Source: Alphaproteobacteria bacterium
Lineage (GTDB): Bacteria; Pseudomonadota; Alphaproteobacteria; ATCC43930; CGMCC-115725
Assembly: GCA_030041385.1 (NCBI GenBank)
Contig: JASHNY010000163.1
Location: 1-32,495 of the forward strand
Length of the DNA: 32,495 nt
Direction: 5' to 3'
The position numbers and the translations under genes were made by a program. Under the pieces are notes generated by a model. The model saw only the letters and a program-made list of their open reading frames with translations, made no database searches and was not told the DNA's origin. Positions within the stretch are counted from its first letter, which is position 1; each line of letters opens with the position of its first letter. Positions 2,111 to 31,455 of this stretch are shown here, one piece after another.

Positions 2111-3640
2111 TTAGAACGCTACGTCGAACTTGCTGTCGATGACCTGCAGGTTGCCCGACGCCTTGCCGCCCGGCACGGCGGCGACGACCTGGCGATGCCC
2201 GTAGGTGTATTCGATGCCGACCGTGACGAACGACACCGGGTTCCACAGCAGGTTAAGATGGGCGGTTTCCAGCTCGCGGTTGGCGGTGCCCGATCCGGCC
2301 GAGCCGGCGATCAGCGTCGACGGGATGTCGTCGTGATTGTAGCCGGCGTTGATGTTGGACCGCAGGTTCGGCGCCCACCAATGCTGGTAGCCGATTTCGC
2401 CGCCGTACTCGACGATCGTCTCGGCCAGAACGTGCGCAGCGCTGGCGGCGCTGGTCGTCGTCGCGACGAAGTTGGTGGCGATGTCGGCGTTGGTGCTGCT
2501 GTTCAGATACGCGCCGATACCGTTGCCGCCGACGACATGGAAGATGATGTCATCCTTGGCCCAGCCCAGCCAGCCTGGCTTGACGTCGAAGCTGAACGCG
2601 CCGCCGTAGCCGAGGTAGGAACGGCTCAGATAGGCGCCGTCGGTCAGCTCCATGTTCGGCCGCAGCACGCCGGCGATGTCGAAATGGCCCCACGGCTGCG
2701 GCACGTAATAGGCCGCGGTCAGAGCCGGAACGTTCGCCTTGGTCGGGTTCGGCATGATCGCTTCCACGCCGGGTCCGGTCGAGACCGCGGCGCAACCGAC
2801 ACCGCAATCCGAGGAGATCAGGCCGTTCGGCGTCCAGGCCGAGGTTTCCGGCGTTTCGGCCGAGAACGACAGGGCGCCGCCGATTCCCCAGGCCAGCGGC
2901 ATCGTATAGCGGAGCTGAGGAACGCGGACCTTGCCGGGTTCGCCGACGTTGCCGCCGAAGTCGATCGTCTCGCCGTTGGCGTCGGCGTCTTCAAAGTTCG
3001 AGTTTGCCTGGCCGGCCAACCAACCGCCCAACGTGCCGTAAATGTACTTAACGCGGGGGATCAGGTTGTCGGAGATCATGGTAGGGCCGGTGCCGCCCGG
3101 CGCATAGCCGGTGGAACCCGCCCAGTCAAACGAGAAGAAGGTCCGCGCCTCGCCGAGCGGGGTCGGCGTGCGCGTCTCGATGATCAACTGCGACTGGCGC
3201 GGGCTCTGCGAGAAGATGCTGCTGGCGCGGGCCGTCGCGGTGCCGCTGAGCGGGATCGTCTGCACGAGGCCGTTGGCGCCCAGCGTCGTCGTCTGCGGGC
3301 TGGCGTTGGGGCTGCCGCCTTCCAGCTCGTAGTCGAAGATCTCGGTGATGTTGCCGCCGATGCGGATCGACGTATCGGTGCCCGGGATCAGAAACGACCG
3401 CGGGAAGCTGCCGCCCGTGGCCCCGGTCGTCGCCGCCGGATTGGGCGGACCGCCGGGATACATGCCTGCGGAGCTGGGCAACTGGGCGACCTGGTCGAGC
3501 TTTTGCTGGAGGAGTTGATTATTGGCGCGCAGGTCCGACAATTCGTCGGCCTTGGCGCTGGGCACCCCCGTCATCAGCGCGACCGCGGCCGCCATGCCGC
3601 CGAGCGCTGCTAAGGTGCCGATGGTCCGCTTCGTGGTCAT
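2111..3640 (-). CDS. DcaP-like outer-membrane porin
   Basis: This 509-residue protein is predicted to be exported and to form an outer-membrane beta-barrel. Residues 1-31 are a signal peptide ending SAKA. Next comes a short coiled-coil segment (DELSDLRANNQLLQQKLDQ), then a Pro/Gly linker. A long barrel region of alternating aromatic/polar strands follows and ends in a terminal Phe (SKFDVAF), as expected for BAM-inserted proteins. The coiled coil before the barrel is characteristic of the DcaP trimeric porins, which pass small anionic or dicarboxylate-type solutes. The substrate here is unknown. The start is ATG 3640, with GGGGGAG at 3649-3643. Longer frames upstream lack a binding site. The gene is divergent from a Crp/Fnr-family regulator across a long regulatory interval. 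Confidence 0.85.
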   Translation of the reverse strand: MTTKRTIGTLAALGGMAAAVALMTGVPSAKADELSDLRANNQLLQQKLDQVAQLPSSAGMYPGGPPNPAATTGATGGSFPRSFLIPGTDTSIRIGGNITEIFDYELEGGSPNASPQTTTLGANGLVQTIPLSGTATARASSIFSQSPRQSQLIIETRTPTPLGEARTFFSFDWAGSTGYAPGGTGPTMISDNLIPRVKYIYGTLGGWLAGQANSNFEDADANGETIDFGGNVGEPGKVRVPQLRYTMPLAWGIGGALSFSAETPETSAWTPNGLISSDCGVGCAAVSTGPGVEAIMPNPTKANVPALTAAYYVPQPWGHFDIAGVLRPNMELTDGAYLSRSYLGYGGAFSFDVKPGWLGWAKDDIIFHVVGGNGIGAYLNSSTNADIATNFVATTTSAASAAHVLAETIVEYGGEIGYQHWWAPNLRSNINAGYNHDDIPSTLIAGSAGSGTANRELETAHLNLLWNPVSFVTVGIEYTYGHRQVVAAVPGGKASGNLQVIDSKFDVAF

Positions 3641-4217
3641 TGCTCCCCCTTCCCTATTCAAGCCGGGACCACGGGAAAAACGCATCCCGTGTTCAACTCG
3701 GCCGTCGATACCTGGGACAGGGCGAGATTTCCTTGCACTAGATGATTCACTTAGATTTATGCGATGTATGAATGTCATAGTTTAAACATCGAAGCAGCAG
3801 CCGCTGCCCAGCCCGCCGGTCGATGCCTCCCTGAAACTTTGTAAATTTTTCAGATCGTTAGAGATGATCTGCTAAGCTCTCTGGTTGATTTTGCGTGATT
3901 GCGGGTGATCGTCTCCGATGGTTGGCCGCGTCCTAAACCCTGTCTTGGCGCGGCATTGTCGATTTTGATGCAGCCATTTTGCCAGACATGTTGCAATTTT
4001 GGCGCAGTCTTGTGCATTATCCTGCGTTCGGCGCTTCCGGGTGCTCGTCTCACCGGGAAATGATCAATAATTCCAGCGGATTGATTGTGTACTCAATGCA
4101 CTAAAGAATAAATCGAGCGGTCGAACACGCTGCGCGCCAGATGTGGAGCGACCGAATGCTGTAGATTGCCGCGCTCAATCACCCGGACCACATATAATCC
4201 GCAGCGCGTCTGGCGGT
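3641..4217. promoter_or_regulatory. Long divergent regulatory interval with several dyads, no gene seen
   Basis: There are about 660 bp between the porin start (3640) and the regulator start (4302), distinctly more AT-rich than the rest of the window. Dyads seen are: CACGGGA-N8-TCCCGTG at 3670-3691, in the porin leader; CAGATC-N9-GATCTG at 3851-3871; a 9-bp near-perfect hairpin at 4035-4059 (one mismatch, 7-base loop); and TTGA-N8-TCAA at 4081-4096. No convincing coding frame, tRNA or rho-independent terminator is present. The length and the dyads suggest control of the porin, and perhaps a small RNA, but nothing here proves either. Confidence 0.45.
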
Positions 4218-19390: not shown

Positions 19391-19430
19391 CATCTCCTGG
19401 ACGCATCGCGCGTCCGCGTGATTGGAGGTG
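19391..19430 (+). promoter_or_regulatory. Putative riboswitch expression platform sequestering the gcvT ribosome site
   Basis: CATCTCC (19391-19397) can pair with the gcvT Shine-Dalgarno GGAGGTG (19424-19430) over seven bp, including one G-U. Between them sits a perfect hairpin, GGACGC-ATCGC-GCGTCC (19399-19415). CATCTCC immediately follows the last stem of aptamer II, and part of it can alternatively pair with GAGG of that stem. This suggests control of translation initiation. It is an inference from base pairing only. Confidence 0.5.
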
Positions 19431-19435
19431 CGCCC

Positions 19436-20554
19436 GTGACCCTTGCCGACGGCGCGGCGCCGCTGAGCCGAACTCCGCTCCACGCGCTGCACCTCGCGCG
19501 CGGTGCGCGCATGGTGGCCTTCGCCGGCTACGAGATGCCGGTGCAGTACCCGCCCGGCATCATCGCCGAGCACCTCCACACCCGCACCCAGGCCGGTTTG
19601 TTCGACGTCTCGCACATGGGGCAGTTGCGCCTCATTGGCCAGGACGCCGCGGCGATGCTCGAGCGGCTGGTGCCCGGCGATGTCCGCGGGTTGGCGCCGG
19701 GGCGCATGCGCTACACCCTGCTGCTCAACGACAAAGGCGGCATCATCGACGATCTGATGGTGACGCGGGTCGAAGACGGGCTTTTTCTCGTCGTCAACGC
19801 GGCGTGCAAGGATACCGACACCGCCCATCTGCGCACCGAGCTGGAGCCCTTCGTCACGGTTGACGCGTGCGACGGCCAGGCGCTGCTGGCCCTGCAAGGG
19901 CCGGCGGCGGCCGCGGTGCTGGCGCGGTTCTGCCCCGGCATCGACCGCATTCCGTTCATGAGCGCGGCGACGGGGTCGTTTGACGGCCGGCCGTGCCAGG
20001 TGACGCGCTCGGGCTATACCGGCGAGGACGGGTTCGAGATTTCGCTGGCCGCGGCGGACGCCACCGCCATTGCCGAGCGCCTCTTGGCCGAGCCGGAGGT
20101 GGCGCCGATCGGCCTCGGCGCGCGCGACACGCTGCGGCTCGAAGCCGGGCTCTGCCTTTACGGCCACGACATCGACACGACCACCAATCCGGTCGAGGCC
20201 GGCCTTGCCTGGGCAATCGGCGCCCGGCGCCGCGCGAACGGCGGATTTCCCGGCGCCGCCACGATCGTGGCCGAGCTGGGTGCGGGACCGCGGCGGCGGC
20301 GCGTCGGCATCCAGCCCGAGGGCCGCGCCCCGGCACGCGAAGGTACGGTCATCACCGATCCGGCCGGCGCCCCGATCGGCCGGGTGACGAGCGGCGGGTT
20401 CGGCCCCTCGGTCGGCGGCCCGATTGCGATGGGCTATGTCGGCAGCCAATTCGCCGCGCCCGGCACCGCGTGCGCGCTGGTCGTGCGGGACCAGCCGCGG
20501 CCGGCGCGGGTGGTGCCGTTGCCATTCGTCCCGCACCGGTATTACCGCGGCTGA
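19436..20554 (+). CDS. gcvT: Glycine cleavage system T protein (aminomethyltransferase)
   Basis: A 372-residue folate enzyme that takes the aminomethyl group from lipoyl-GcvH, releases ammonia and forms methylene-THF. Motifs are [83 protein letters not shown] and [17 protein letters not shown]. The start is GTG 19436, because GGAGGTG at 19424-19430 stands five bases upstream. The in-frame GTG 19418 has no such site and lies in the leader. First gene of gcvT-H-PA-PB and under the glycine riboswitch. Confidence 0.96.
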
Positions 20555-20566
20555 GGAGCATGTTCG

Positions 20567-20944
20567 ATGAGCTTGCTGCGCTTCACCAAAGACCACGAAT
20601 GGATCCGGCAGGAAGGCGATACCGCCGTGATCGGCATCACCGACTATGCCCAGGAGCAGCTCGGCGACGTCGTCTATGTCGAACTGCCCGAGCTTGGCCG
20701 CCAGGTGGAGCGGGGCGGCGAGGCGGCAGTCGTCGAATCGGCCAAGGCGGCGAGCGAGGTCTATGCCCCGGTCGCGGGCGAGGTGGTCGCGGTCAACGAT
20801 GCGATCGCCGCCGATCCCGCCACCGTCAATACCGACCCGATGGGCAACGGCTGGTTCATCAAATTGCGCCTCGCCGAGCCGGCCCAGCTCGACGGGCTGA
20901 TGGACGAGGCGGCCTACCGGAAGTTCATCGCGGAGCTGAAGTGA
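20567..20944 (+). CDS. gcvH: Glycine cleavage system H protein
   Basis: A 125-residue lipoyl carrier protein that shuttles the aminomethyl intermediate between the P, T and L proteins. It has the family start [29 protein letters not shown], and the lipoylation site K60 in [14 protein letters not shown], then EVVAVNDAI and GWFIKLR. Length is normal. ATG 20567 follows gcvT by 12 bp, with GAGGAG at 20552-20557. Its TGA overlaps the gcvPA ATG (TGATG), so translation is coupled. Confidence 0.97.
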
Positions 20945-22290
20945 TGCGCTACCTGCCGCTGACCGCCCGCGACCGCGGCGACATGCTGGCCGCGATCGGC
21001 GTGCCGTCGATCGATGCGCTGTTCGCCGACGTGCCGGCGGCGGCGCGGCGCGACGGCCTCGTCGACCTGCCGCGGGCGATGGGAGAACTCGAGGTCGAGC
21101 GCCGCATCGCCGCGATGGCGGCGAAGAACACGGCGGCCGGCTCGGTGCCGTTTTTCCTCGGCGGCGGCGCCTATCGCCATCACGTGCCGGCTGCGGTCGA
21201 TCACCTGATCCAGCGCGGCGAGTTCCTGACCTCGTACACGCCCTACCAGCCGGAAGTGGCGCAGGGCACGTTGCAGGCGCTGTTCGAGTTCCAGACCCAG
21301 GTGGCGTTGCTGACCGGGATGGAGGTGGCCAACGCCTCGCTCTATGACGGCGCCACCGCCTGCGCCGAGGCGGTGGCGATGGCGCGGCGGGTGACGCGCC
21401 GCGACCGCGCGATCCTCTCCGGCGGCCTGCATCCGCATTACCGCGAGGTGTGCCAGACCTACGGCGGCTTTGCCGGTACCGGGCCGGTGCTGATGCCGCC
21501 GGTCCCCGGCGGCGGCGAAGACCTCGCCAGGCTGATCGACCGCGACACCGCCTGCGTCGTCGTGCAGAACCCCGATTTCTTCGGCGGTTTGCACGATTAC
21601 TCCGCGCTCGCCGATTCCTGCCACGCCGCCGGCGCCCTTTTGGTCGTGATCGTCGCCGAGGTCGTGTCGCTCGGCCTCGTCAAGCCGCCCGGCGAGATGG
21701 GGGCCGACATCGTCGCCGCCGAGGGGCAATCCTTCGGCAATGCGCTCAATTTCGGCGGCCCGCATCTCGGGCTGTTCGCCACCCGCGACCGCTATGTGCG
21801 GCAGATGCCGGGGCGGCTCGCCGGCCAGACCGCCGACGCCGACGGGCGGCGCGGCTGGGTGTTGACGCTGTCGACGCGCGAGCAGCACATCCGCCGCGAA
21901 AAGGCGACCAGCAACATCTGCACCAATTCCGGGCTGTGCGCGCTCGCCTTCACGATCCATCTCGCCCTGCTCGGCGAAGCGGGGCTCACGCGTCTCGCGC
22001 GCCTCAACCACGAGGCTGCGATCAAGACCGCGGATCGGCTCGCCGCGGTGCCGGGGGTGACAGTGCTCACCGGCAGTTTCTTCAACGAGTTCACGGTCCA
22101 GTTGCCGCGTGCGGCCGGGCCGGTCGTCGATAAGCTCGCCGCGCGCGGCGTCCTTGCCGGCATCCCGCTGAGCCGGCTCTATCCCGGCGAGGCCGGTCTT
22201 GCCGATCTGCTCTTGGTGGCGGCGACCGAAACCGTGACCGACGACGACATCGACCGGCTTGCCGCGGGGCTGACGGAGGGATTGCGATGA
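20944..22290 (+). CDS. gcvPA: Glycine decarboxylase P protein, subunit 1
   Basis: The 448-residue N-terminal half of the split glycine decarboxylase. It has the family start MRYLPLT and the fold-type I sequence [73 protein letters not shown], trimmed here to key words: [26 protein letters not shown] and [18 protein letters not shown]. It lacks the PLP lysine, which resides in subunit 2. Together the two make the PLP enzyme that decarboxylates glycine onto lipoyl-GcvH. ATG 20944 overlaps the gcvH stop, and its own stop overlaps gcvPB (ATGA). Confidence 0.96.
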
Positions 22291-23846
22291 CCGGCTGGAG
22301 CCAGGCCCTCGGCGCGCATCCTGGCGCGGCGGCGGGCGCCGCCGAGACCGTCAGCGGCAATCGCGGCCTGCAGATCGAGGAGAAATTGCTGTTCGAGCAG
22401 GATTCGCCCGGCCATTGCGGCGTCGATCTGCCCGAACCGGCAGGTCTCGCCCCGCGGCTCGGCGGGACCGAACGCAAAGGCCCGATCGGCCTCCCCGGGC
22501 TCAGCGAGCCGCAGATCGTGCGTCATTTCACCCGCCTGTCGCAGAAGAACTACGCGATCGACAGTGGCATCTATCCGCTCGGCTCGTGCACGATGAAGCA
22601 CAATCCCCGGCTCAACGAGAAACTGGCGCGGCTGCCCGGCTTTGCCGATCTGCACCCGCTGCAGCCGCCGGCGACGGTCGCGGGCGCGCTCGAACTGGTC
22701 GACACCTTGGCGCACTGGCTGAAGACGTTGACCGGCATGCCGGCGATGGCGCTGTCGCCGGCAGCCGGGGCGCACGGCGAATTGTGCGGCATGATGACGA
22801 TCCGCGCCGCGCTGACCGCGCGCGGCGACCCGCGCCGCCGCATCCTGGTGCCGGAATCGGCGCACGGCACCAACCCGGCGACCGCGGCGACCTGCGGCTA
22901 TGCGATCGACAACATCCCCAACAATGCACGCGGCCGGGTCGATCTCGCCGCGCTCAAGGCCGAGCTCGGCGGCGATGTTGCCGCGCTGATGCTGACCAAC
23001 CCGAACACCTGCGGGCTGTTCGAGGACGAGATCCTCGACATCGCCGCGGCGGTGCACAGCGCCGGTGCGTTCTTCTATTGCGACGGCGCCAATTTCAACG
23101 CGATCGTCGGCCGGGTGCGGCCGGGCGATCTCGGCATCGATGCGCTGCATCTCAATCTGCACAAGACGTTTTCGACCCCTCACGGCGGCGGCGGCCCGGG
23201 CAGCGGCCCGGTCGCCCTGGCGGCCGAACTGGCGCCGTTTGCGCCGCTGCCCTGGCTGGTTCACGACCACGGCGGATTGCGGCTTGTCGAGCACCGCGAT
23301 GGCGAGGCGGCGCAGTCGATCGGCCGGCTCAAAGGGTTCCACGGCCAGATCGGCATGTTCGTGCGGGCGCTCGCCTACATGATGAGCCACGGCGCCGACG
23401 GGCTCAAACAGGCCGCCGAGGACGCGGTGCTCAACGCCAACTATCTGCGGGTGCGGCTGGAGGGGGCGCTGAGCCTTTCCTATCCGGGCCCGTGCATGCA
23501 CGAGGTACTGTTCGACGATCGCTTCCTGAAGGACACGGGGGCAACCACGCTCGATTTCGCCAAGGCGCTGATCGACGAGGGCTTTCACCCGATGACGATG
23601 TATTTCCCGCTGATCGTGCACGGCGCATTGCTGATCGAGCCGACCGAAAGCGAGAGCAAGGCCTCGCTCGACCAGTTTGCCGATACGGTGCTGGCGCTGG
23701 CGGCACGCGCCCGCGGCGGCGATGCGACATCGTTTCACGCCGCGCCGCGGCTCGCTCCGCGCCGCCGCCTCGACGAGACGACGGCGGCGCGCAAGCCGGT
23801 GCTGCGCTGGCGCCCGGAGCCGGCGCAGCGCGAGGCCGCGGAATAG
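22287..23846 (+). CDS. gcvPB: Glycine decarboxylase P protein, subunit 2 (PLP-bearing)
   Basis: The 519-residue catalytic half of glycine decarboxylase. The PLP lysine is K293 in [17 protein letters not shown]. Other features are [36 protein letters not shown]-like [27 protein letters not shown] and [23 protein letters not shown]-type text near the end. The last 30 residues are Arg/Ala-rich and extend a little past the usual end. It overlaps gcvPA by four bases. Two-gene P proteins occur in part of the Alphaproteobacteria, while many relatives use a single-chain GcvP. No clear terminator follows. gcvL (dihydrolipoyl dehydrogenase) is not in the window. Confidence 0.96.
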
Positions 23847-23879
23847 ATTGCACACTTATACTTCGCTAATTGTTTCCTA

Positions 23880-25733: not shown

Positions 25734-27098
25734 CTACGTGTTGTCGAACAGGCGCTGGCCGACGAACTCGCCCTCCGCCATGCCGCCGGGGCAGGCGAAC
25801 ACTCCGCTGCCGACATGAGTGACGAACTGGTTCATCATGTCGAACTTCGCCATTCTCTCGAAAATCTTGATGAACCCGTTTCGCGGGTCGCGCTGGTAGC
25901 ACAGAAAGAACAGGCCGGCATCGTATTCCATCCCCTGCCGCCACGGCGGCCAGCGCTCGGCGGTGAAATCGACGCCGTCATTGTACGAATAGGGCCGGCG
26001 CAGGATTTGCGCGCCGCCATTGTTCGCCGCGGCGGCGAGGCGGACGTGCGAGTTCTGCGGGATCAGCAGGTTTCCGTTCTTGTCGGTCGCCTTCAGATCG
26101 ACCGGGTCGGTCTCGTTCTTCATGCCGAGCGGGGCGCCGGACGCCTTGTGCCGGCCGAACGTCTGTTCCTGAAACGCGACATTCATCCGGTCCCAGTGTT
26201 CGATGGCGATGCGGATGCGCCGGGCGATGAGGTAGCTGCCGCCGCGCATCCAATCCGGCCCCTCGGCGCCGACCCAGACGACCTTGTCCATCGCCTGGGG
26301 GTCGGTGATGGACGGGTTGACCGTGCCATCGCGGAACCCCATCAGGTTGCGCGCCCGCTGTCCCGGCCCGAAATTGGGCATGAAGCCGGTCTGCGCCCAG
26401 CGCACCTGCGCCACGCCATAGGCCATCCGCGCCAATTGCCGCACACAGTGAAACGCGACCTGCGGGTCGTCGGCGCAAGCCTGCACCGACAAATCGCCGC
26501 CGGTATGCGACGGCACCAGCTGGTCGCCGGCAAAGCGCGGCAGGTCGACGAGCGCCTCCGGCCGCCTCTGCGCGATGCCGTAGCGGTCCTTGCCGTCCTT
26601 GACGAACAGCCCGGGACCGAAACCGAAGGTCACGGTCAGACGCGAGGGCGGCAGCCCGGTGGCTTCCCCGGTGTCGGGCATCGCCACGGTGGTGTGCGTC
26701 GGCGCCGTGGCGCTGGCGGTCGTGGTGGTCGTGCTGGTGTCGTAGGAATAGGTCAGCTCAGTCTCGTCGAACGGCTTGATCGGCAGGCCGCGGGCCATGC
26801 GGCCGGCCGCCTCGGTCCAGCCGCGCAACACGCCGACCACGTCGTCGCGCTTCGTGGTGGTCAGGTCGAAAGCGGCGAAATAGGTGCTGCTTTGCGACGG
26901 CGTGGCAATGCCGCCCTGGTGCGGCCCCCAGAACGGCTCCAGCCCGCCGGCGCCGCCCGCCTCTGCCATGTCTTCGGTCTTTGCCAGTGCGGCCGGATCG
27001 GCGCCGGGCGCGAGCGCCGCTCCGGCGACGGCGACAAGCCCGGCCGTTCCGGTCAGGAAGCCGCGGCGGGTCGCGCCGCCACGCCCGTTTGCCGTCAT
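25734..27098 (-). CDS. efeB: Tat-exported DyP-type peroxidase (EfeB-like)
   Basis: A 454-residue heme peroxidase exported folded. Residues 10-30 hold the Tat signal TRRGFLTGTAGLVAVAG. The DyP signature GFRDGT is at 254-259 (catalytic D257), the proximal heme ligand is H351 in NSHVRLA, and the distal Arg is near 367-368 (ILRRPYSY). Also present are FGFGPGLF and NGGAQILRR, typical of EfeB. In EfeUOB, EfeB acts in the periplasm in ferrous iron oxidation or heme iron release. A Thr/Ser-rich insertion (residues about 119-139) is unusual. ATG 27098 overlaps the NHL gene stop (ATGA), so it is coupled to it. It belongs to the iron locus. Confidence 0.93.
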   Translation of the reverse strand: MTANGRGGATRRGFLTGTAGLVAVAGAALAPGADPAALAKTEDMAEAGGAGGLEPFWGPHQGGIATPSQSSTYFAAFDLTTTKRDDVVGVLRGWTEAAGRMARGLPIKPFDETELTYSYDTSTTTTTASATAPTHTTVAMPDTGEATGLPPSRLTVTFGFGPGLFVKDGKDRYGIAQRRPEALVDLPRFAGDQLVPSHTGGDLSVQACADDPQVAFHCVRQLARMAYGVAQVRWAQTGFMPNFGPGQRARNLMGFRDGTVNPSITDPQAMDKVVWVGAEGPDWMRGGSYLIARRIRIAIEHWDRMNVAFQEQTFGRHKASGAPLGMKNETDPVDLKATDKNGNLLIPQNSHVRLAAAANNGGAQILRRPYSYNDGVDFTAERWPPWRQGMEYDAGLFFLCYQRDPRNGFIKIFERMAKFDMMNQFVTHVGSGVFACPGGMAEGEFVGQRLFDNT

Positions 27099-28261
27099 CT
27101 GACTGCTTCCACCAGCGTGTTCACGTCGTCTTCGACGTAATAGAAGCCGTTGCCGTCGGGCGCCATCGCGATACCGAACAGGTCGCCGTTACCCGGCGGC
27201 GATTGCGCCTGGTTGGCGTCGATCCATTGCGCATAAATCTGCTTTCCGGTCGCCGGGTTGACCTCGACGAGCTGCCCGTTCTTGGCGTTGCAGGACAGCA
27301 GGTGGCCCTCCTGGGTCATCGCCAGGGCCAGCGGCCGCTGCAACAGCCCGTCCTGGGTGACGACGCGGCCGGTTCCGGCGCTGTCGGTGCGCGTGGGTGC
27401 GTCGGCGATGGCGACGATGCGGTTGCCGATCGCGTCCGCGACATAGAGCGTGCCGTCGCTCGCCAGGGCAAGACCGGTCGGGCCGATCAGAAAGGCGTCC
27501 TTGTCGGCGCGCGCGCCGAAGCCGCTGGCGATCACGGTCTGGTTGGCGATGACCGGCGGCTGGCCCGGCGGGATCGATAATGAGATGCGCAATACGGTCG
27601 CCTTGTTGACGATGACGGGATCGCCGGTCTTCGCATCCGTCACCGTGGGAGCGGGAACATCGAACCCGGCCATGGTGATGAACAATGTCGCGGTGTTGCC
27701 GTTGTCGATCGTCGCCATGTCCCACGGCCCATCGATGTTGGGGCCGGTCCAGGTTGCGACCAATTCGCCGTTGGGGTTGAACACCAGCAGGCAGCCCCGC
27801 CCCAGCGTGGCGGTGGTGCCGTCGGTGCTCGGAGTGCTGCCGACGATGACCCAGCCGCTCTTCAGCATCGTCATCGCCGTGGTCAAGCCGACGCCGCCCG
27901 GGCATTGCGCCAGGTGCTGCGACAGTTTCGCGAACAGCGTCGTCTTCTTGGTGGTCGGGTTGTAACTGACGATCGTGGTGCCGGTGCCCTGAAGGTTGGA
28001 GGCGTTGTTGAAGTTGTCGACCAGCACGTCGCCCTGCCGGATCTTGCCGGCCGAAACCGGAGCCACGACCACCGCATAGGGGTTGAGGTCGCCGTTATCG
28101 GTCACCGTCGAGGTCACCGTGACGTGCCGGTGGATCGTCTCGAGCAGGCCCTGTGGTGCTGCCGCCAGCACCGGCGGGGCAGACACCAGCGCGGCGACCA
28201 GCAACCCACCGGCGATGCCGATGGTGAACCGAGATACTGCCTGGATGTCCTGGACCGTCAC
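27095..28261 (-). CDS. Exported NHL-repeat beta-propeller protein
   Basis: A 388-residue secreted protein of unknown function. Residues 1-33 form a signal peptide (hydrophobic TIGIAGGLLVAALV, cleavage after VLA). The mature part has propeller blades such as GPTGLALASDGTLYVADAIGNRIVAI, RPLALAMTQEGHLLSC and DLFGIAMAPDGNGFYYVED, i.e. NHL/SMP-30-like repeats. Two starts compete: GTG 28261, which gives a normal signal peptide, and ATG 28357, which adds 32 residues and carries GGAG upstream. I prefer 28261 because a Fur-like palindrome (28282-28298) lies between them. It is coupled to the DyP peroxidase by an ATGA overlap and follows the porin. In the iron locus it could bind substrate or scaffold the peroxidase, which is inference. 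Confidence 0.75.
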   Translation of the reverse strand: MTVQDIQAVSRFTIGIAGGLLVAALVSAPPVLAAAPQGLLETIHRHVTVTSTVTDNGDLNPYAVVVAPVSAGKIRQGDVLVDNFNNASNLQGTGTTIVSYNPTTKKTTLFAKLSQHLAQCPGGVGLTTAMTMLKSGWVIVGSTPSTDGTTATLGRGCLLVFNPNGELVATWTGPNIDGPWDMATIDNGNTATLFITMAGFDVPAPTVTDAKTGDPVIVNKATVLRISLSIPPGQPPVIANQTVIASGFGARADKDAFLIGPTGLALASDGTLYVADAIGNRIVAIADAPTRTDSAGTGRVVTQDGLLQRPLALAMTQEGHLLSCNAKNGQLVEVNPATGKQIYAQWIDANQAQSPPGNGDLFGIAMAPDGNGFYYVEDDVNTLVEAVR

Positions 28262-28281
28262 TGCTGCCCCGTTCTCTCTAT

Positions 28282-28298
28282 GCGAATAGGTCGCATTC
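28282..28298 (-). promoter_or_regulatory. Fur-like box before the NHL gene
   Basis: The plus-strand 17-mer GCGAATAGGTCGCATTC matches the porin box GCGAATCATTCGCATTC at 14 of 17 positions and keeps the dyad ATGCGA-N5-TCGCAT (28280-28296). It stands 20 bp before GTG 28261. A TTGACG (28327-28322) with CCTAAT 15 bp away is a poor but possible promoter. The box implies a second transcription start inside the locus. Confidence 0.5.
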
Positions 28299-28369
28299 AC
28301 ATTAGGATTGCTCATCCATCCCGTCAAGCCGGGGACACCGCGATTGCGTGTCTGCATCCTCGCTCTCCG

Positions 28370-29866
28370 TCAAAAGGTGATGTTGGTGCGCACGCCGAGC
28401 ACCAGTTCATTGGCGACCCGTGCGGTGCCGTTCGCATTGGCGATCCCGCCGCCGGGGTTGAACACGTATTGCAGGTCAGGTTGAAGCTGCAGCCACGATG
28501 TGGCTGCGTACTGGTAGGTCGCCTCGATATAGGTCTCGCCGCCCCGCACCGGGGTAAAGGCGCCGGTGTAGAATTGGCTGTCGCGGTCGAGCCCGGCGAC
28601 GCGCGGGCTGACCCGAACATAGCCCATGGCGAGACCCAACGTATCGCTGTCGCGCCCGGGCAGCGGCGCTTTCAGGTTGACGCCGGCGTTGAGGCCGAAA
28701 TCGAGCAAATTGCGGTTGGTTTCAGGGGTCCCCATGATGCGGGTGAAGAGGCTCAGGGTGTGGCCGGGATCGTCGGAGTCCTGCCACACCGTCTGGTCGG
28801 CGACGGCATAGAGGCTGTAATCGCCGCTGTGCTGCTGGGGAATGCCGGTGCTGGCGGGGTTGGCGAGCGACAGCCCGGTATTGTCGAAGCGCTGGTCGGC
28901 AAAGCTTTCGCTGTCGTACCAGAAGCCGATCTTATAGGTGCCCGGCAGGACCGCGGACTGCCCCGGATAGGTCATGCCGCCCGTCGACGGAAAGGAAAAC
29001 TGCAACTCCGCGATCGCCAGCGTGCCGCCGTTGAGCGGAAAGCTGGTCCCCGACGGGTTTGTCTGCTGCGGGTCGCCGACCGTGGTAGGAGCCGGGTTGC
29101 CGTTGAACACGCCGGCCAAGACGGTCAGCGGCCCGCTCGGATGCGCCCGCAACCGCACCCCGAGTGCCGACAGCGGATAGGCCGGGCCGCCGCCGGGCAG
29201 ATCCAGCGACGGTACCGCCGGCCACCCGAAGGCGGTGTTGACGTACAGCGCCGCGTTCTGGCTGGTGATGAATTCCTGGTCGAGGCTTTGCTGGCCGATC
29301 TTCAGATCAACCCAGTCCCCGTCGAGAAATTTCTGGTCGTACCACAATTCCCACAGCCGGGTGGCGCGATCGGCCTCGATGCCGCTGGCGGTCTGCAGCG
29401 TCCCCAGATTTTCGACGCTCAAATTGCGGCCGTGGATTTGCAGCGCGCTGACGTCGAACGTGCCGCCATGCCAGCCGAAAGCGCGCTGGGTGTCGAGCTG
29501 CAATGTCGCCGTGGTCAACCCGTCATAAGTGAAGCCGGTGTGAAAGCCGCCGGTGACATTGCCCAGCACCTCGCTCGTTTCCTGCAACGTGAAGGTCATC
29601 CCGTACTCGCCGAGAAACGGGCGCAATCCCCACATGTTGCCGAGCAGCTGGCCGTTGACGCCGAGCCCGCTCAAAAAGCCCGAATTGTCGCTTGCCGGAG
29701 CGGCCGCCGGGCCGGGCTGAACCTGCTGCCCGGCCGGAGCCGATGGCTGCTGTGACTGTGCGAAGGCGGGGTGGCCGCTGCCGCACAGGAGCAATGCGGA
29801 GAGGCCCGCAACCGACCACGCCGCCCGCTTCGCTCTTGCCCGCGCCACCCGTTTTAATGTGCTCAT
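28370..29866 (-). CDS. OprB-family carbohydrate-type porin
   Basis: A 498-residue outer-membrane beta-barrel. Residues 1-36 are a signal peptide ending AFA. After a Pro/Gln-rich linker comes an OprB-like domain: GNMWGLRPFLGEYGMTFTLQETSEVLGNVTGG shape, YDGLTTATLQLDTQRAFGWHGGTFDVSALQIHG shape, then LWYDQKFLDGDWVDLKIGQQSLDQEF-like text and a terminal strand ending NITF with C-terminal Phe. OprB proteins pass sugars, but members occur beside FTR1 or metal genes with unknown cargo. The start is ATG 29866, with AGGGGA directly upstream. It lies between the FTR1 permease and the NHL gene and has its own Fur-like boxes, so iron-related transport is likely. Confidence 0.85.
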   Translation of the reverse strand: MSTLKRVARARAKRAAWSVAGLSALLLCGSGHPAFAQSQQPSAPAGQQVQPGPAAAPASDNSGFLSGLGVNGQLLGNMWGLRPFLGEYGMTFTLQETSEVLGNVTGGFHTGFTYDGLTTATLQLDTQRAFGWHGGTFDVSALQIHGRNLSVENLGTLQTASGIEADRATRLWELWYDQKFLDGDWVDLKIGQQSLDQEFITSQNAALYVNTAFGWPAVPSLDLPGGGPAYPLSALGVRLRAHPSGPLTVLAGVFNGNPAPTTVGDPQQTNPSGTSFPLNGGTLAIAELQFSFPSTGGMTYPGQSAVLPGTYKIGFWYDSESFADQRFDNTGLSLANPASTGIPQQHSGDYSLYAVADQTVWQDSDDPGHTLSLFTRIMGTPETNRNLLDFGLNAGVNLKAPLPGRDSDTLGLAMGYVRVSPRVAGLDRDSQFYTGAFTPVRGGETYIEATYQYAATSWLQLQPDLQYVFNPGGGIANANGTARVANELVLGVRTNITF

Positions 29867-29889
29867 GTCCCCTTCCATCGGATAATAAC

Positions 29890-29928
29890 AATAATCATTC
29901 GCATTCGTTGAGCGAATCATTCGCATTC
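29890..29928 (-). promoter_or_regulatory. Tandem Fur-like boxes before the porin
   Basis: GCGAATCATTCGC (29912-29924) is a perfect 13-bp palindrome. AATAATCATTCGC (29890-29902) repeats its right half. The 14-mer AATCATTCGCATTC occurs at 29893-29906 and 29915-29928, a direct repeat with a 22-bp period, about two helical turns. AATAATCATT also resembles the enterobacterial Fur core. TAGAAT (29930-29925, minus strand) could be the -10, overlapping the box. Fur or a Fur-like regulator is the natural candidate. Confidence 0.7.
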
Positions 29929-29949
29929 TAGTCTGGGCGGGGTGCAAGC

Positions 29950-30786
29950 TTAGTCTGCGGCGGCGGGGGCGGCAGCGACCGGCCGGCGCCCGCCGAACAG
30001 CCGCATCAGCGCCACGATAACGACGATCGTCGCCGCGTAGACGACAAGCTGGGCGCCGGAGGGCCGGTCGGTATAGCCGATCAGCGTGTGCAGCAGGCGC
30101 CCGACCAGGCTGCTGTCAGACAAGAGCCAGGACGTATTCCACACCGGTGCGGTCAGCACCTCGGCGTCTCCGGCCTGCTGGACGAAGTCGATCGCCTGCG
30201 CCGCGAGCCCCGCGGCGAGCAGCGTGATCAGACCCGAGGTCGCGGCAAACAGCCGACTCGCCGGGATCGTCAGCAGGCCGAAATACATCGCCGCGGTCAC
30301 CCCGACACCGCCGGCGAGGCCGAGAGCGCCGCCGGTCAGCATCGCCGCGCCGGAGAGCCCGCCGGCCGTGGCGATGCCGTAAAGGAACAGCACGACTTCC
30401 GATCCTTCCCGCAATACGGCGACGCCGACCACCACCGACAAGGCGATCAACGGACGCTGCCCGGCTGCGATTTCGGCCCCCATTGCCCGCATCTGCTGCG
30501 CCATCGCGCGGCCGTGGCTGGCCATCCACACGTTGTGCCAGGTCAGCATGACGACCGCGAGGATCAGGATCGAGGCGTTGAAAAACTCCTGCCCGGAGCC
30601 CTGGAACAGCGCTGCAAGCTGACCGGCAAAGCCGGCCACGAGGCAGGCTCCGGCGACCCCGCCGGCGACCCCGTAGCCGACCCACCGGCCGCGGCCCGGC
30701 ACCCCTTTCGACGCGGCCAGCACGATGCCGACGATCAGTCCCGCCTCGATGACTTCGCGAAAGACGATCAGCAGCGTTGCGAGCAT
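29950..30786 (-). CDS. efeU: FTR1-family high-affinity iron permease (EfeU-like)
   Basis: A 278-residue inner-membrane protein with seven hydrophobic segments. Both iron-path motifs REXXE are present: R10-E-V-I-E14 in helix 1 and R126-E-G-S-E130 in helix 4. In the FTR1/EfeU family these carry ferric iron across the membrane after periplasmic oxidation. A periplasmic loop near 205-235 precedes the last helix. ATG 30786 begins thirteen bases after the cupredoxin stop, so the two are probably cotranscribed. The downstream porin, propeller and DyP peroxidase complete a locus resembling EfeUOB without a visible M75 EfeO. Confidence 0.93.
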   Translation of the reverse strand: MLATLLIVFREVIEAGLIVGIVLAASKGVPGRGRWVGYGVAGGVAGACLVAGFAGQLAALFQGSGQEFFNASILILAVVMLTWHNVWMASHGRAMAQQMRAMGAEIAAGQRPLIALSVVVGVAVLREGSEVVLFLYGIATAGGLSGAAMLTGGALGLAGGVGVTAAMYFGLLTIPASRLFAATSGLITLLAAGLAAQAIDFVQQAGDAEVLTAPVWNTSWLLSDSSLVGRLLHTLIGYTDRPSGAQLVVYAATIVVIVALMRLFGGRRPVAAAPAAAD

Positions 30787-30799
30787 CGGACCGCGCCCT

Positions 30800-31162
30800 C
30801 TACTCCGAGATCACGACGCCCTTGGCCGTGGCCGAATGATATTCGCCCATGAACGGGTAGCGGCCGGGGTTGAGCGGGCGCAGGTGCACGGTGCCGTGCG
30901 TGCGGCCGGCGATGACCTTCTCGACCTTCAGCGCCGAGGAATCGAATTCCTCTGCCGTCGCATCCTTGTTGGTGATCGTCAGGGTCACCGGCTTGTTGGC
31001 CGGAACGTGGATCTCGGACGGGGTGAAGCGGTGGTTGTGGATCGTGACCGGGATGTTGGTCTGCGCATCCGCCCGGGCGGGAAGGCCGCACAGCCCGCCG
31101 ACCAGCAGCAAGAGGATGGGGAGGGCGACCCGCTGGGGCCGGTCAAGCAATTTGCTGATCAT
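30800..31162 (-). CDS. Periplasmic cupredoxin (EfeO N-domain-like)
   Basis: A 120-residue exported protein. A signal peptide (about residues 1-33, LLLLVGGLCGLPARADA) precedes one cupredoxin domain: IPVTIHNHRFTPSEIHVPANKPVTLTITN, then AEEFDSSALKVEKVI and the end PGRYPFMGEYHSATAKGVV. The blue-copper Cys is absent. Candidate metal ligands are His in IHNHRF, Glu in AEEFDS, Met in FMGEYH and its His. This is the pattern of the EfeO/FtrB-type cupredoxins, which bind Cu or Fe for ferrous oxidation or delivery to FTR1. The M75 domain normally fused in EfeO is missing. It is the first gene of the iron locus, behind the promoter at 31254-31225. Confidence 0.87.
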   Translation of the reverse strand: MISKLLDRPQRVALPILLLLVGGLCGLPARADAQTNIPVTIHNHRFTPSEIHVPANKPVTLTITNKDATAEEFDSSALKVEKVIAGRTHGTVHLRPLNPGRYPFMGEYHSATAKGVVISE

Positions 31163-31455
31163 GGGCTGCTTCTTTCGACACCGTTGACAACACGAGATCT
31201 TTGCCGCCGAAACCGGCAGCGCGCCTTATAGGCTCATATGCAATTGCAAGTCAATCGCAGGTCAGCCATGCTGTTTCGGCAATGCCCGCGATAGGGCGCG
31301 AGTTTTCCGCGCCGCCGGCACCCGCAGCGGGCGGGCAATCGCCGGCAATCCTCGCGGAAATGCGTCAAAACCGTTGCCGGGGCGGGACGGGCGGTAGATG
31401 CTTGCCGATCGATCGCGCCCGCGCGGATGGGGTGCGGCAAAAGGGAGCACGACCC
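31163..31455. other. Divergent intergenic region, otherwise empty
   Basis: The 293 bp between the cupredoxin and dioxygenase starts hold the promoter/operator at 31225-31254. No further coding frame or RNA was recognised. A GC-rich stretch (31310-31400) precedes the plus-strand gene with no clear promoter. Confidence 0.5.
31225..31254 (-). promoter_or_regulatory. Promoter of the iron locus with an internal palindromic operator
   Basis: On the minus strand TTGACT (31254-31249), 18 bp and TATAAG (31230-31225) form a strong sigma70 promoter. The start would be near 31218 and the leader about 55 bases to ATG 31162. The spacer contains the perfect palindrome TGCAATTGCA (31248-31239), well placed for a repressor to exclude RNA polymerase. 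It differs from the GCGAAT boxes, so the regulator could be Fur, Irr or a relative. Confidence 0.65.

Follow-up and report, generated by a model that had tools for sequence, protein, structure and literature searches.

Which genes of an apparent iron-uptake locus form its core, and which can be exchanged? This question is raised by a 32,495-nucleotide stretch of the genome of an alphaproteobacterial soil bacterium (contig JASHNY010000163.1 of assembly GCA_030041385.1; hereafter the window, meaning the whole stretch analyzed), in which gene calls and Pfam/NCBIfam searches placed five consecutive minus-strand genes in the region 25734-31254, encoding a cupredoxin, an FTR1 permease, an OprB porin, an NHL propeller, and a DyP peroxidase. 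A previous sequence-only reading had named these families, and the gene calls and Pfam matches agree with it; it had further taken the five products for an iron locus that forms one self-contained FTR1 route.

Our analysis points to a smaller unit. The OprB, NHL, and DyP genes probably constitute a Fur-repressed outer-membrane and periplasmic iron-acquisition module, which would feed exchangeable inner-membrane permeases. At the level of sequence, the basis of this reading consists of gene order, Fur-box matches, an intact haem-peroxidase site, a twin-arginine translocation (Tat) motif in DyP, and the presence next to some copies of either an FTR1-cupredoxin pair or a HitABC-like importer.

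Conservation of the OprB-NHL-DyP cassette

A propeller alignment scan of genome contigs returned 318 relatives. Analysis was confined to the best 80, and the neighbors in these 80 loci were identified by tblastn with the proteins of the window. OprB was located upstream of the propeller in 72 of the 74 loci with enough flank (the exceptions being L072 and L111), DyP was located downstream in 69 of 71 (exceptions L040 and L111), and both genes flanked the propeller in 63 of the 65 loci whose sequence extended far enough in either direction. In contrast, FTR1 was present within the fetched flank of only 7 of the 80 loci (4 of the 39 full-length loci). The expectation that the porin and NHL genes would neighbor FTR1 and DyP elsewhere therefore holds for DyP and fails for FTR1, and a conserved order is found for the last three genes and not for all five. 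Of 398 genomes sampled evenly across the phylum, four contained the propeller, the window's own genome included, and the other three loci all had the arrangement OprB-NHL-DyP; in two of these three, from genomes outside the class of the window, the order continued as OprB-NHL-DyP-FbpA-FbpB-FbpC. The module is rare, patchy, and compact.

The titles of the 80 loci include alpha-, beta-, and gammaproteobacteria, together with metagenome bins of other phyla that are possibly mis-binned. Contigs titled Planctomycetota, Mycobacteriaceae, Spirochaetia, or Omnitrophota (L048, L062, L090, and L101) carry the cassette at 62 to 68% identity, reflecting either transfer or mis-binning, and the propeller of L111, which stands alone, also lies on an off-phylum contig of this group. 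Distant propeller homologues (about 34 to 38% identity; L122, L038, and L039, of which L038 is only 3.2 kb long) had no OprB or DyP neighbor and were left out of the cassette count.

Across 69 loci, the propeller had the highest mean identity of the three proteins (67%, with DyP at 62% and OprB at 59%), and the distance matrices of the three proteins co-varied (Mantel r 0.57 to 0.73, largest shuffled value 0.22), the value for propeller and DyP being 0.67.

Neighbors beyond these three genes were tallied by Pfam family in loci of at least 8 kb, using crude gene calls (48 of 76 downstream and 47 of 64 upstream genes; the 25 commonest of 78 and 54 families). This tally contained FTR1, cupredoxin, TonB receptors, ferritin-like proteins, and one Nramp, with cupredoxins and TonB receptors each accounting for 5 of the 47 upstream neighbors scanned, and no other recurrent fourth gene was found among these commonest families. 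In L042 (2409-5138) and L049 (1989-4502), genes for TonB-dependent receptors lie immediately upstream of the cassette and on the other strand. A second DyP gene is located near the cassette in L057 (2191-3459) and L084 (8083-11790), and in the latter it is followed by cupredoxin and FTR1 genes.

Fur-box matches and permease partners

Upstream regions were scanned for 72 cassettes among the 83 loci L040-L122, the rest having no OprB or too little sequence. Using the classical 19-base Fur consensus, at least 14 of 19 positions matched in 24 of the 72 upstream regions, versus 2 of 568 same-length segments of the same loci and 2 of 360 shuffles; at least 15 positions matched in 10 of 72, versus 0 of 568 segments and 1 of 360 shuffles. 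A refined matrix gave at least 12 bits in 60 of 72 upstream regions versus 5 of 426 controls, a comparison that is partly circular because the matrix was trained on the same regions. Within the window, the five sites of at least 10 bits (29884, the overlapping 29890, 29912, 28282, and 31240) all lie inside the locus, with none elsewhere in the 32.5 kb, and 100 shuffles of the window gave a mean of 0.15 sites of at least 14 bits and at most one per shuffle. Fur-box matches at the locus exceed chance and support its sequence-only reading as an iron locus, and its predicted iron control is well supported by these motifs.

The FTR1-OprB gap contains three of the matches and another precedes the cupredoxin gene, for which reason we read the locus as two putative Fur-controlled units (cupredoxin-FTR1 and OprB-NHL-DyP) and not as one simple operon. 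A single five-gene operon was rejected as the general arrangement on two grounds: FTR1 and OprB have Fur-box matches between them, and the FTR1-cupredoxin pair is separable. It should be noted that the mechanically called OprB frame begins at TTG 29947; since GGAAGGGG, a ribosome site read directly, precedes ATG 29866 downstream of the Fur-box matches, the true start is very likely ATG 29866.

Regarding the permeases, cupredoxin was present within the fetched flank of 17 of the 80 loci (6 of the 39 full-length loci), and in six of them (L046, L051, L059, L066, L077, and L119) it is divergent and upstream of OprB. A HitABC-like three-gene ATP-binding cassette (ABC) importer adjoins OprB-NHL-DyP in 4 of the 80 loci, from Pseudomonas (L110), Burkholderia (L116), Andreprevotia (L118), and a bin titled Azospirillaceae (L117), as well as in both Paraburkholderia/Caballeronia plasmid loci probed (L120 and L121). 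This importer comes directly after the three genes in L110, L116, L118, L120, L121, and L170, as well as in the two phylum-sample loci with the FbpA-FbpB-FbpC order, and before them in L117. The binding protein of L118 is closest in the PDB to the ferric-binding protein HitA (E 1.7e-76), and one deposited Paraburkholderia record annotates, in order, a carbohydrate porin, a hypothetical protein, efeB, an iron ABC binding protein, an iron ABC permease, and an ATPase. In L112 (9735-11009), the gene following DyP encodes an Nramp metal transporter, a possible further permease partner.

Among 18 named isolates that carry the cassette, 9 had no FTR1 match and all 9 of these had FeoB_C, and the 6 isolates without FeoB_C all had FTR1. 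When the window's genome was included, 3 genomes had both, 7 had FTR1 only, 9 had FeoB only, and none had neither (Fisher p 0.003). This complementarity may reflect that every cell needs a permease. As judged from gene content, the cassette is not tied to FTR1, which appears to be optional.

These observations bear on the proposal that the locus is a variant EfeUOB/Ftr system, in which the five products would together make up a single FTR1 route, entered through the porin, and the propeller would substitute for EfeO. Cupredoxin and FTR1 do adjoin the cassette here and in several relatives, and in the family of the window, many genomes of which are incomplete, an FTR1 match was present in 14 of 14 genomes with a close propeller versus 17 of 25 without. 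However, FTR1-cupredoxin pairs are also present in genomes of this family that have no propeller, Fur-box matches separate FTR1 from OprB, and the claim of a self-contained FTR1 route gives way to the few flanks with FTR1, the 9 of 18 cassette isolates with no match to it, and the HitABC-like importer found instead in several loci. We consider this proposal unlikely. In one further genome (G015; L164:6993-9915), a gene for an OprB protein 54% identical to the cassette porin lies divergently beside an FTR1-cupredoxin pair, with no propeller relative found there, which constitutes an independent tie of the cassette porin to FTR1.

Predicted properties of the encoded proteins

In the genome of the window, which is 98.46% complete, whole-genome searches returned one FTR1 match and one OprB match, each of them the locus copy, and no match for M75 (PF09375, the EfeO domain) or FeoB_C; the propeller is represented by one close copy, with a weak 29% match elsewhere. 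The earlier claims of a missing M75/EfeO and of a dedicated outer-membrane pore are both borne out by these searches. The cupredoxin matched Pfam Cupredoxin_1 (4.3e-27), retains H44, E72, E81, and H109 in 11 of 11 homologues, and has as its best PDB match 8vuk (E 9.2e-11), which is FtrB of Brucella (PMC11966278). The permease matched Pfam FTR1 (PF03239, 2.5e-33), and both RExxE motifs are present in 7 of 7 linked homologues; its score against the NCBI EfeU equivalog model is far under the cut-off (130.8 vs. 255 bits).

The porin matched Pfam OprB (304.6 bits, E 1.6e-90) and, in the PDB, Porin B (4gey/4gf4, E 1.3e-25). DyP matched both the N and C Dyp_perox domains of Pfam, scored narrowly above the NCBI EfeB model TIGR01412 (433.2 vs. 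a cut-off of 428 bits), and matched 7pkx in the PDB (E 4.8e-98). All 73 aligned homologues have H351 and R367, and 71 of the 73 have D257; in the DyP family these are haem-site residues, and the predicted haem-peroxidase site of DyP is intact. A loose Tat pattern is present in 73 of 76 DyP homologues.

Porin and peroxidase could also be regarded as an oxidative-stress or aromatic-degrading set, in which the porin would let in peroxide or phenolics for DyP to destroy, and Fur would only tie the set to iron status or peroxide defense. DyP enzymes oxidize dyes and phenolics, OprB porins are otherwise nutrient porins, and several host records come, by their titles, from bog or palsa samples. Nevertheless, iron importers adjoin the cassette in several lineages, cupredoxins and TonB receptors are also among its neighbors, and production of a haem enzyme under iron starvation would be oddly timed unless the enzyme served iron supply. 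We therefore give this explanation little credence.

The propeller passed the Pfam cut-offs of both SGL (27.8 bits, cut-off 26.3) and NHL (22.2 bits, cut-off 20). Its AlphaFold model (predicted local distance difference test score of 83.5, predicted template modeling score of 0.81, first 45 residues poor) was closest to the RPA3624 lactonase (8djf; Z 29.0, root-mean-square deviation 2.5 over 269 residues), and the 50 structures listed, including SGL-like and NHL propellers, gave Z values from 26.5 to 29.0. As modeled, the protein has a six-bladed propeller fold, as in SGL/SMP-30 lactonases. The catalytic metal ligands of SGL proteins are Glu, Asn, Asn, and Asp. Two of these positions could be aligned: where the SGL proteins encoded in the window's genome have Asn and Asp, the propeller has Thr294 and Leu343, respectively. 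The remaining two fall outside the alignment. Because Thr294 and Leu343, which are invariant among 79 aligned propellers, occupy the alignable metal-ligand positions, a classical SGL active site is unlikely, and a canonical lactonase identity was not favored. Cysteines 152 and 189 are near-invariant, which suggests that they form a disulfide. An iron chelator of lactone or ester type could also be taken up and hydrolyzed, with the propeller as the periplasmic lactonase that opens the ligand. Such a route would agree with the Fur-box matches and with RPA3624 as best structural match, although many other propellers score within 2 to 3 Z, a fold by itself does not show function, and the two replaced residues argue against it, making this the least credible explanation and a very improbable one.

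The coordinates of these genes and sites are collected in Table 1; the DyP gene overlaps the NHL gene by 4 bases. Elsewhere in the window, ARAGORN called a tRNA-Cys (gca) at 19860-19946 (+), inside a frame that by eye resembles glycine-cleavage T protein, which is probably a false positive, and a gene at 2111-3778 (-) by eye resembles one for an exported outer-membrane protein. In L167 (5495-13440), from another family of the window's class, the cassette lies beside glycine-cleavage genes (by eye), and it does likewise in the window (about 19400-23850).

Table 1. Genes and Fur-box-like sites of the locus, in window coordinates.
Feature	Position	Strand	Basis
Fur-box-like site before the cupredoxin-FTR1 unit	31240..31258	-	14.1 bits, matrix from other loci
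Exported cupredoxin, FtrB/EfeO-N type, 120 amino acids	30800..31162	-	Pfam Cupredoxin_1; PDB 8vuk
FTR1 family inner-membrane iron permease, 278 amino acids	29950..30786	-	Pfam FTR1; both RExxE motifs
Fur-box-like site 1, FTR1-OprB gap	29912..29930	-	16.8 bits
Fur-box-like site 2, FTR1-OprB gap	29884..29908	-	Overlapping 19.9- and 16.4-bit matches; 19.9 is the best in the window
OprB-family outer-membrane porin	28370..29866	-	Pfam OprB; PDB 4gey/4gf4; start corrected to ATG 29866
Fur-box-like site near the NHL start	28282..28300	-	16.1 bits; may fall within the coding frame
Exported NHL/SGL-like propeller, 420 amino acids as called, start may be later	27095..28357	-	Pfam; AlphaFold; 8djf match
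Putative Tat-exported EfeB-type DyP haem peroxidase/deferrochelatase, 454 amino acids	25734..27098	-	TIGR01412; PDB 7pkx

A proposed model of iron acquisition and its relation to known systems

In the mechanism that we infer, which concerns the roles of the individual proteins, the cargo of the porin, the substrate of DyP, the interaction of DyP with the propeller, and the link to FeoB, iron limitation would lift Fur repression, and the OprB-family porin would admit an iron source to the periplasm with no need for TonB. The EfeB-type DyP, with the propeller as a fixed partner in place of EfeO/FepA, would then release iron from this source (haem or another ligand), and the freed iron would be imported by FTR1 and the cupredoxin here, by HitABC in Burkholderia relatives, and by FeoB where neither is known. 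The S. aureus DyP protein FepB is reported to require its own EfeO-like partner FepA for the use of haem iron (PMC3577903), and with this precedent it is reasonable to assign the propeller a dedicated partner role. That the propeller replaces EfeO is plausible, and the co-variation of propeller and DyP fits this idea without proving it. The role of EfeB-type DyP proteins is itself unsettled in the literature, where peroxidase activity and removal of haem iron are both given and the role of EfeO/M is called unclear (PMC9174327).

Several points weigh against reading OprB-NHL-DyP as an iron-acquisition module. Neither FTR1 (4 loci) nor a HitABC-like importer (4 loci) is present within about 7 kb in 31 of the 39 full-length loci, and outside the core the neighbors are otherwise mixed. 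In L118, the three ABC proteins passed no NCBIfam cut-off, the nearest models being those for phosphonate, sulfate, or molybdate, and for this reason the ferric assignment of that importer depends on the PDB match and on the annotation of one record. There is no 10-bit Fur site in 8 of the 72 upstream regions and no 12-bit site in 12, and since the window was excluded from the training set of the matrix but its family relatives were included, only the consensus test is wholly independent. In addition, the set of 80 comprises the loci most similar to the query, some of which are closely related among themselves; the common history of the host species contributes to the co-variation of the three proteins; and sugar passage is the classical function of OprB porins. 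Because the module accompanies ferric-type and probably also ferrous (FeoB) permeases, DyP is unlikely to have a fixed redox role, and release of iron from a ligand fits better.

The EfeUOB system of E. coli and the FepABC system of S. aureus share with the locus an FTR1 permease and a Tat-exported EfeB-type DyP and are often iron-regulated, whereas here there is no M75/EfeO match, a porin and a propeller accompany DyP, FTR1 is optional, and a HitABC-like importer is present in places. In the family of the window, M75 was found in 5 of 39 genomes, 2 of them among the 14 with the propeller, and there on contigs other than that of the cassette. FtrABCD of Brucella and Bordetella likewise has an FtrB-like cupredoxin adjacent to FTR1; it differs from the locus, where no P19 (FtrA) or polyferredoxin (FtrD) was found among the five gene products, to which that search was confined, and where porin, propeller, and DyP are added. 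Because there is no M75 match, the locus is by membership not an EfeUOB system, although its parts may work like those of EfeUOB and FtrABCD. The HitABC/FbpABC systems are related to the module through the HitA-like importer that adjoins it in some relatives, and they are absent from the locus of the window; classical Hit/Fbp operons are not known to carry an OprB-NHL-DyP cassette.

The nearest precedents for the pore are FeoP and Slr1908. FeoP, which belongs to the OprB porin family and has a predicted Fur box, is part of the FeoPABC system of Acidithiobacillus, where it is found beside feoABC in two of the three species described (PMC2631029); this is a ferrous FeoB system, and neither DyP nor a propeller is mentioned in the available portion of that article. 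The cyanobacterial SLH/OprB porin Slr1908 is an OprB-domain porin that is reported to matter for cellular iron content (PMC8707739), and it differs in its SLH domain and in that a linked DyP or propeller is not mentioned in the accessible text. Judged by titles and abstract openings among the matches listed, no paper from the open-access library searched describes the present gene set, a description elsewhere being possible, and this way of collecting iron is apparently undescribed so far.

A more specific and tentative version, doubtful as a whole, would be that of a soil-proteobacterial module independent of both permease and TonB, in which the porin would admit haem or small phenolic or humic iron complexes, the DyP-propeller pair would strip the iron by ligand oxidation or deferrochelation and hand it to FTR1, Hit, or Feo, and the propeller would represent a new class of DyP partner unrelated to EfeO.

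The locus offers a natural system, with culturable isolates (among them Dyella, Sapientia, and Novosphingobium), in which M75/EfeO is absent from the window's genome, an unrelated propeller accompanies DyP, an outer-membrane pore is firmly linked to these two, and the permease is variable or encoded elsewhere. This arrangement separates the job of DyP from that of FTR1, which makes the job of DyP testable. If the reading of OprB-NHL-DyP as an iron-acquisition module is true, these proteobacteria would have a dedicated pore-based entry for iron, as predicted for FeoP and as reported for the cyanobacterial OprB-domain porin.

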